Source of the DNA: Streptococcaceae bacterium ESL0687
GTDB taxonomy: Bacteria; Bacillota; Bacilli; Lactobacillales; Streptococcaceae
Assembly: GCA_029392475.1 (NCBI GenBank)
Contig: CP113940.1
Coordinates: forward strand, 186,001-250,000
Reading direction: 5' to 3'
DNA length: 64,000 nt
In this document: in pieces, positions 26,710 to 28,687 of the stretch
Position numbering within the stretch: position 1 is the first letter of the stretch
How the letters are laid out: each line of letters begins with the position of its first letter
The notes under the pieces: generated by a model
What the model was told of the DNA's origin: nothing
The model's database searches: none
What the model saw: only the letters and a program-made list of their open reading frames with translations
Position numbers and translations under genes: made by a program

Positions 26710-26726
26710 AAATTAAAATCAATAGG

Positions 26727-26756
26727 TTGACTGGTTTTCCATAATGATTATATAAT
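26727..26756 (+). promoter_or_regulatory. Promoter of the small membrane protein gene
   Basis: TTGACT (26727-26732), 18 bases, perfect TATAAT (26751-26756). Predicted start near 26763. Confidence 0.7.
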
Positions 26757-26787
26757 TGCGGTAAGTTTTTACGGGAGGTTGGGTATT

Positions 26788-26991
26788 TTGAAAAATTTCT
26801 TGAAGAAGTATAATTGGCCTTTTGTAGTTGATCTTACTTTATTCGTTCTATTGACTAGATATGTTATTGATATGCCTAAAAACTTATTGCTTAATATAAG
26901 TGTTAGTCTTATTATCTTTATATGCTTGAATGTACTTACGAGTTTTATTTTTTCAAGATTGAGCAATAAATCTTCAAAAAATAATCTGTAA
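26788..26991 (+). CDS. Small two-helix membrane protein of unknown function
   Basis: A 67-residue protein with a TTG start (26788) nine bases after GGGAGG; the upstream in-frame TTG 26779 touches that site. It has a basic N-terminus (MKNFLKKYNW), two hydrophobic helices (residues about 10-24 and 32-52) and a basic Ser/Lys tail. A consensus promoter drives it, and the hairpin behind it doubles as the CesR-like box of the next operon. I do not recognise a family. Function unknown; position next to an envelope-stress operon is suggestive only. Confidence 0.6.
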   Translation: MKNFLKKYNWPFVVDLTLFVLLTRYVIDMPKNLLLNISVSLIIFICLNVLTSFIFSRLSNKSSKNNL

Positions 26992-27008: not shown

Positions 27009-27034
27009 ATTCAGTCTGCGGACTGATTTTTTTT
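27009..27034 (+). terminator. Hairpin terminator overlapping a CesR-like box
   Basis: TCAGTC-TGCG-GACTGA followed by eight T. It should end the transcript of the small membrane protein. Confidence 0.7.
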
Positions 27035-27053
27035 GGTGAAAATCTGACATAAT
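27011..27053 (+). promoter_or_regulatory. CesR/LiaR-type box and promoter of the DUF4097-PspC operon
   Basis: TCAGTCTGCGGACTGA (27011-27026) matches the lactococcal CesR motif TCAGHCTnnAGDCTGA at 15 of 16 positions. A promoter follows with an extended -10, TGA-CATAAT (CATAAT 27048-27053) and no proper -35, as expected for an activator-dependent promoter. With the start near 27060, the box is centred about 41 bases upstream. Confidence 0.75.
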
Positions 27054-27078
27054 GTAAACATAGCAGGAGGAATTGAAC

Positions 27079-28287
27079 ATGAATAAAAAAGAAAGAATTT
27101 TAGATTTAATGCGTCATGGAGTAATCTCCAATGAAGAAGCAATTGAACTACTTGAAAACATTGACAATAAAAATAATGAAACAAATAATATAGATGCTGA
27201 TAAGGGTCTTGATAGCCTAAGTGATATTTTTGCAGGTTTTGATCCCAAAACTTTCTTTGATACTGAGGAAGTAGTTGAAGAATTCGGGGAGGATGATTCA
27301 GCCAAGCAGGAAAAAGAAAGTGAGAACAAGGATAAGGAACAAGATAAATTTAATGCAACTGACCTTTCAGACAGCATTGGAGAAGCCTTTAAAAGCCTTT
27401 TAGGTTGGGGCAGTGATGTCTTTGATAACATGAAAACAAAGGTCGATGAAAACTTTGAATGGGATTCTGGTAAATTCAAGGTTAAAACTAGTAAGAAGCA
27501 AGATTCAAGGATTATTGACGGAGATATTCGTGCCTTAAATATCATCTCTCAAGCAGGAGATATTGAAGTAATCAAGTCAGATGACGATAAGGTCAAGATT
27601 GATTTTGACCTTGAGGTTTATGGTAACGAGGATTTAGAAGATTTTCTTGCTAAAAATCTCCTTATTAGTGATGCTGGAGGCATTCTTACCATCAATGTTG
27701 CAAGTAAGCGTGTGTCAGCTGACATGGTAGTAAGCCTTCCAGCCAAAAGATATGACTCTTTAATTGTTAGACTGGCAAGTGGGGACGTGAGTGTCAGCTC
27801 AACCATTGCTGACTACATCCGCATCACCAATATAAGTGGTGATTTGGAGCTTAATGGTTTAAGTTCAACAATTACTGAACTTTCAACAAAAAATGGTGAT
27901 TTGAAGGTTTCTGGTGGTTCTTACACCGACTTAAACGTTAAGACAATTAACGGTGATTTGACTGTAAACTCTGACTTTGAAACTAGTGAACTTTCATCAA
28001 TCAACGGGGCCATTCGCCTTGCTCCAAGCCTTAAGGCTAAAAAAATAAATATTAAAAATATCAATGGTGACATCAAGATGTCAATTCCATCTTCAGCAGG
28101 ATTTACAGGACTTGCTAAGACATCATTTGGGAAATATAAAACCCGCCTGGAATTAGATAATCCATTAGATATTGGGAAAAGCGGTGTGGCCTTAGTCAGA
28201 ACAGGTCATGATGTTATTACCTTTGAAATTGAATCTAGGATGGGTAATATTTGGCTCAAAGATGCTGACTTAGATGAAAAAAAATGA
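27079..28287 (+). CDS. DUF4097 (LiaG/LiaX-like) envelope-stress protein
   Basis: A 402-residue protein without signal peptide. The N-terminus MNKKERILDLMRHGVISNEEAIELLENI is a short helical domain common to YvlB/LiaX-type proteins; an acidic low-complexity linker (about 35-110) follows, then a DUF4097 right-handed beta-helix with repeats such as SGDLELNG, NGDLKVSGG, NGDLTVNS and NGDIKMS. Paired with PspC and preceded by a CesR-like box, it matches the lactococcal CesSR stress regulon. ATG 27079 has AGGAGG eight bases upstream; TTG 27073 is too close to that site. Confidence 0.85.
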   Translation: MNKKERILDLMRHGVISNEEAIELLENIDNKNNETNNIDADKGLDSLSDIFAGFDPKTFFDTEEVVEEFGEDDSAKQEKESENKDKEQDKFNATDLSDSIGEAFKSLLGWGSDVFDNMKTKVDENFEWDSGKFKVKTSKKQDSRIIDGDIRALNIISQAGDIEVIKSDDDKVKIDFDLEVYGNEDLEDFLAKNLLISDAGGILTINVASKRVSADMVVSLPAKRYDSLIVRLASGDVSVSSTIADYIRITNISGDLELNGLSSTITELSTKNGDLKVSGGSYTDLNVKTINGDLTVNSDFETSELSSINGAIRLAPSLKAKKINIKNINGDIKMSIPSSAGFTGLAKTSFGKYKTRLELDNPLDIGKSGVALVRTGHDVITFEIESRMGNIWLKDADLDEKK

Positions 28288-28324: not shown

Positions 28325-28654
28325 ATGCCAAAGAAAAGACTGACAAAATCTTCAACTGATAGAGTTTGGTCAGGTGTCTTAGGTGGGATATCAGAATATT
28401 TCGGACTTGATTCAACTTGGGTTAGGATTGCCTATGTTGCCTTGTCAGTAGTTTCTTCTGGCTTTCCAGGAATAACACTTTATATTCTCCTTTCCATAAT
28501 AATTCCTAAGGATTCAAACTCAAACTACAGAAGCTATAATGGCTTTGAAGGGAACTATTATTACAAGGATAGATCAAAGTCAACAGATGGCTCTCGCAAA
28601 AGAAAAGATGCTGAGGTAGTCCATGACGACGATGATGACTGGGCTGATTTCTAA
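28325..28654 (+). CDS. PspC-domain envelope-stress protein
   Basis: A 109-residue membrane protein. The PspC domain occupies residues about 5-65: KRLTKSSTDRVWSGVLGGISEYFGLDSTWVRIAYV followed by one long hydrophobic helix and IIPKD. The tail is hydrophilic and ends in a run of Asp (DDDDDWADF). It lies 37 bases after the DUF4097 gene with AAAGAGGAAA upstream and shares its CesR-like promoter. PspC proteins of this regulon respond to cell-wall antibiotics and bacteriocins in Lactococcus. Confidence 0.9.
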   Translation: MPKKRLTKSSTDRVWSGVLGGISEYFGLDSTWVRIAYVALSVVSSGFPGITLYILLSIIIPKDSNSNYRSYNGFEGNYYYKDRSKSTDGSRKRKDAEVVHDDDDDWADF

Positions 28655-28660
28655 GCCTTT

Positions 28661-28687
28661 AAAGAACTAGCTGCGGCTAGTTTTTTG
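28661..28687 (+). terminator. Terminator of the DUF4097-PspC operon
   Basis: AACTAGC-TGCG-GCTAGTT followed by TTTTGTTT. Confidence 0.88.

Follow-up and report, generated by a model that had tools for sequence, protein, structure and literature searches.

A predicted LiaR/CesR operator that may double as an intrinsic terminator of the upstream gene in Streptococcaceae

In the 64,000-nt stretch of the Streptococcaceae bacterium ESL0687 genome analysed here (the window), a single inverted repeat in front of a DUF4097-pspC operon probably does two jobs: as DNA it would be a LiaR/CesR operator, and as RNA it would be the terminator of the upstream gene, insulating a stress promoter. Comparison with relatives supports the operator identity, the promoter geometry, the terminator-like form and the association of that form with the lack of another terminator, and from these we infer LiaR binding and termination in ESL0687, with insulation as the benefit. 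The genes run in the order tex, sprT, a gene for a DNA/RNA non-specific endonuclease (nuclease gene), a 70-aa ORF, the repeat (box), DUF4097, pspC, a 212-aa ORF and hprK, and the features around the box are as follows.

26727..26756, + strand: sigma-70-like promoter TTGACT-18-TATAAT of the small upstream ORF (consensus scan, 11/12)
26779..26991, + strand: small upstream ORF, 70 aa from TTG 26779, with no Pfam match (ORF list, Pfam)
27011..27026, + strand: predicted CesR/LiaR box, a 16-bp inverted repeat whose RNA would form a 6-bp hairpin with loop UGCG (sequence, conservation, hairpin score)
27027..27034, + strand: T8 tract that would be the terminator's U-tract and that also falls within the -35/spacer part of the downstream promoter (sequence, terminator score)
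27045..27053, + strand: extended -10 TGA-CATAAT of the DUF4097-pspC promoter, inferred start at ~27060 (spacing conserved in relatives)
27065..27070, + strand: ribosome-binding site AGGAGG (sequence)
27079..28287, + strand: DUF4097 ('Toastrack') gene, orthologue of llmg_2164 (Pfam PF13349, E 3e-17; conserved in Lactococcus, Pseudolactococcus and Floricoccus)
28325..28654, + strand: pspC gene, orthologue of llmg_2163 / SMU.753 (Pfam PF04024, E 1.9e-20)
28667..28686, + strand: terminator after pspC, CTAGC-TGCG-GCTAG followed by T6 (d = 4.3)

The repeat TCAGTCTGCGGACTGA (27011-27026) has a perfect 6-bp stem with the loop TGCG and is directly followed by the eight T (27027-27034) that an earlier note on this DNA had described. 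The same note had claimed a match to the lactococcal CesR motif at 15 of 16 positions, and this count holds: against the consensus TCAGHCTnnAGDCTGA, as quoted in PMC4447274, the sole mismatch is G for A at position 10, i.e. 15/16 counting the two n and 13/14 at the informative positions. By chance, 0.22 matches with up to three mismatches to the consensus would be expected in the window, and an exact match to TCAGNCTNNNGNCTGA occurs only once in the 1.47-Mb genome (a single contig, nearly complete), at the box itself, with 0 for the reversed pattern. The distance of about 41 bases, given earlier from the box to the DUF4097-PspC start, has to be corrected, as the ATG at 27079 lies 52 bases after the end of the box; the value instead corresponds to the transcription start, with the box centre ∼41.5 bases before position 27060, a start inferred from the extended -10. 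The first base of the box is then at about -49, within the positions -51 to -47 that were allowed for the first base of VraR/LiaR/CesR boxes on the basis of pneumococcal and lactococcal promoters, among them that of llmg_2164 (PMC6560143). To the S. mutans A-tract motif MTMA4, the upstream ATTAAAT fits at 5/7 positions and the downstream T7, read on the other strand, at 6/7.

Conservation at the orthologous promoter, position, the presence of the cognate LiaFSR system and published work showing that the orthologous L. lactis promoter depends on CesSR strongly support the CesR/LiaR-type site proposed in the note, and the palindrome at 27011-27026 is very probably such an activator site. The DUF4097-pspC genes are orthologous to llmg_2164-llmg_2163, a known CesSR target; in the CesSR response of L. 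lactis llmg_2164 and llmg_2163 were up 12.9- and 11.9-fold, and the llmg_2164 promoter served as a CesSR reporter (PMC3139573). The L. cremoris promoter of this type, AAAAA-TCAGCCCAAAGGCTGA-TTTTTATTTGGCAGAAGTTTGAGATAAT, has the same box layout and spacing as that of the window and a T-rich downstream flank, and its box has a single deviation from the consensus, C for T at position 7 of one half-site, which is the window's deviation on the other strand. It differs in that a CHAP-like upstream gene ends 82 bases before the box, and dual use as a terminator is not described for the llmg_2164 box in the papers found. In an alignment of the orthologous promoters of Floricoccus, Lactococcus, Pseudolactococcus and a Lactovum-like genus, the layout of A-tract, box and extended -10 is common to all, with nearly constant spacing between box and extended -10. 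Family-wide, the box plus extended -10 was found at ∼100 places in 79 of 335 Streptococcaceae genomes and the reversed pattern at none, and a search for related loci with the DUF4097 protein as query gave no matches. The Floricoccus-like ESL0687 genome encodes LiaFSR (LiaF PF09922, LiaS HisKA_3, LiaR GerE), and the DNA-binding domain of its LiaR is identical to that of L. cremoris CesR at 47 of 60 positions. This adds a predicted new member to a known regulon.

The LiaR site of Streptococcus pspC (SMU.753 / SPV_0803) is likewise in a pspC promoter and is LiaR-bound (EMSA in S. mutans; PMC4447274) or part of the VraR/LiaR regulon. The order in many streptococci is tex-sprT-box-pspC, compared with tex-sprT-nuclease-box-DUF4097-pspC in the window; most streptococci are without DUF4097, the box often contains the stop codon of sprT, and some clades have no T-run.

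In its RNA form the box looks like the stop signal of the preceding gene, a view supported by its structure and position. With the T-run the hairpin has a d'Aubenton-Carafa score (d) of 15.6, the sixth of 17 predicted plus-strand terminators in the window, most of which come after stop codons; the stability of the hairpin is -6.1 kcal/mol, with the T8 directly after it. The stop codon of the 70-aa ORF is 19 bases before the box, and there is no other terminator candidate between them. A search for the Rho RNA-binding domain found no match in the ESL0687 genome, and among the eight genomes searched L. cremoris alone matched. Like intrinsic (Rho-independent) terminators in general, the element consists of a GC-bearing hairpin and a U-tract just past a stop codon; it differs from them in that its stem sequence would be fixed by the site of a DNA-binding protein and that it sits inside another promoter.

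The 70-aa ORF with its own strong promoter (26710-26991), for which TTG 26788 is a better fit to the SD sequence GGGAGG than TTG 26779, lies between the nuclease gene and the box and is missing in the sister species G003; there, 18 bases separate the end of the nuclease gene from the element. Hence, the gene served by the terminator may not be the same in the two species. Compared with F. penangensis (L003), F. tropicus (L004) has an inverted-repeat insert ∼255 bases ahead of the box, in the interval that follows the nuclease gene. Tandem palindromic repeats like CTAGGCGCTAGCG fill the region before the box in the Streptococcaceae MAG Nc350 (L123; also L167).

Across relatives, the terminator form of the box was compared with the need for a terminator in 32 promoter contexts, which were grouped by hand. 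With a threshold of -12.5 for terminator competence, set after inspecting the scores, the box is terminator-competent in 11/19 contexts having a codirectional upstream gene without its own terminator, and in 0/13 contexts with another terminator, a divergent neighbour or the box in coding sequence (Fisher p 0.0006); at the stricter threshold of d ≥0 the counts are 8/19 and 0/13. The number of downstream T also differs between the two groups (median 7.0 vs 3.9, p 0.0013), whereas the number of upstream A does not (p 0.75), which suggests an operator role for the A-tract side and a terminator role for the T-run side. Upstream neighbours of the box vary by lineage and include the nuclease, a CHAP-like protein, fructose-bisphosphate aldolase (fba), a ferrochelatase-like ORF, the ileS C-terminus and sprT, names that were read by eye from C-terminal sequences, with a profile search (Pfam) behind only some of them. 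A separate terminator stands between the upstream gene and the box in the L. garvieae clade and in the fba and ferrochelatase-like contexts. Where such a terminator is present, the box has lost the T-run, the stem or their join, and where it is absent, the box is usually terminator-competent. In ESL0687 itself, murC has its own terminator (d = 24.7) before the liaF promoter, and the degenerate liaF box TCAGTCAATAGACTCA (L281; G000:C1:1079224-1079239, minus strand) has kept the -10 spacing and has no T-run. So the T-run appears dispensable for the promoter and seems to track the need to terminate. On the tree of the DUF4097 protein there are only two independent changes, both within Lactococcus and both in the expected direction, and the dual-use association rests on few independent changes.

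All six stem pairs form in 20/26 vs 10/22 distinct boxes. Compensatory changes in the stem would be weak evidence of selection on the RNA, as the operator is palindromic in any case, and the stem in Pseudolactococcus retains an A.C mismatch. Extra-stable tetraloops (UNCG, GNRA) were found in 2/26 vs 1/22 distinct boxes, which is not significant.

A set of 110 streptococcal pspC loci, left out of the 32 contexts and meant as a replicate, added little power. Many of these loci lack both a T-run and a separate terminator, notably in two sizeable groups whose boxes resemble TCGGCCTAAGGACTGA-TG and TCAGCCTGAGGACTGA-TG, and separate terminators are essentially found in one clade. Since 'neither' is common at the sprT-pspC junction, a terminator there would be useful and not indispensable. 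In many streptococci the sprT stop codon is inside the LiaR box (AAT CAG TCG TAA; L445, L451, L453, L456, L480 and others), and such a stretch is at once coding end, operator and sometimes terminator. At streptococcal hpt promoters (L321, L323, L338, L346, L347, L349, L362, L363), the LiaR-type box is apparently inside the preceding CDS, probably tilS, with 0 T-runs. The S. mitis group (L175, L185, L211, L224, L341, L342) has near-perfect LiaR boxes before small ORFs that vary, are unrelated to one another and may be accessory or mobile genes.

At first we took the T-run to be no more than a component of the LiaR site, and more broadly the box might be an operator only, with T-run and hairpin potential belonging to the LiaR site or to an AT-rich promoter, so that it resembles a terminator by construction and no termination takes place in vivo. 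LiaR boxes do carry A-tracts beside the repeat, which belong to the S. mutans LiaR site and one of which S. mutans LiaR needs (PMC4447274), and in Floricoccus the opposite strand of the T8 may contribute to LiaR binding in its own right. Moreover, an A.C mismatch weakens the terminator in Pseudolactococcus by breaking the stem, yet the T-run persists there, and a terminator is missing from this junction in many streptococci. Both the narrower and the broader form are weakened by the fact that many boxes whose promoter geometry is the same lack a T-run (L. garvieae clade, S. mitis group, hpt promoters, the species' own liaF promoter) and by the fact that T-run presence follows the lack of another terminator; we regard an operator alone as unlikely, though as an explanation that deserves some weight. 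The converse, a terminator only with a CesR match by chance, would account for the good terminator score, but box and geometry are conserved at orthologous promoters and family-wide, with 0 in reversed controls, and its probability is close to negligible.

The note had further suggested that binding of the activator is coupled to transcription from upstream. In such a switch, bound LiaR would alter the fate of the upstream polymerase, as a roadblock or by changing termination, or transcription from upstream would displace LiaR, and each unit would thereby affect the other. Physical overlap of the two elements makes interference possible, but the upstream genes differ among lineages (from nuclease to sprT, as listed above), which argues against a conserved coupling, and we think there is very little chance that it operates here. 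In a wider form, LiaR/CesR operators would be recurrently co-opted as terminators and bound LiaR would block or alter upstream termination, so that one site regulates two units; this we also consider improbable. The coupling proposed earlier found no support, and a stress promoter that is merely insulated would be the more economical explanation. The other part of that proposal, a terminator of the upstream gene, is supported by structure, by position, by the lack of a Rho match and by the association in relatives with the absence of another terminator.

In the dual-use reading that we favour, phosphorylated LiaR (CesR) would bind the box as dsDNA, centred near -41.5 and overlapping the place of the missing -35, and bound LiaR would recruit polymerase to the extended -10 promoter of the DUF4097-pspC envelope-stress operon. 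Polymerase arriving from upstream would copy the repeat and U8 into RNA, and the intrinsic terminator so formed would end the upstream transcript. The stress promoter would then be insulated from read-through, leaving the operon dependent on LiaR.

That one inverted repeat can serve both DNA recognition and termination is known from the DNA uptake sequences of Neisseria and Haemophilus, which are used as terminators. There, the repeat is an uptake signal, whereas the box of the window would be the operator of a transcription activator. No description of terminator-operator overlap at LiaR/CesR sites was found in a partial literature search. What is new here is the proposed reuse of an operator as a terminator, which recurs in the family and is not seen where there is another terminator; the comparison of sequences across relatives supports it well.

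If confirmed, the palindrome of a regulator would be reusable as a terminator, with the operator bringing the stem and the T-run supplying the rest, and the box would be a testable case in which an operator sequence is constrained as DNA and as RNA at once. Programs that predict terminators will label such sites as terminators, and searches for operators will miss what these sites do as RNA. For lactic acid bacteria, the arrangement also points to activator promoters that are both compact and insulated.
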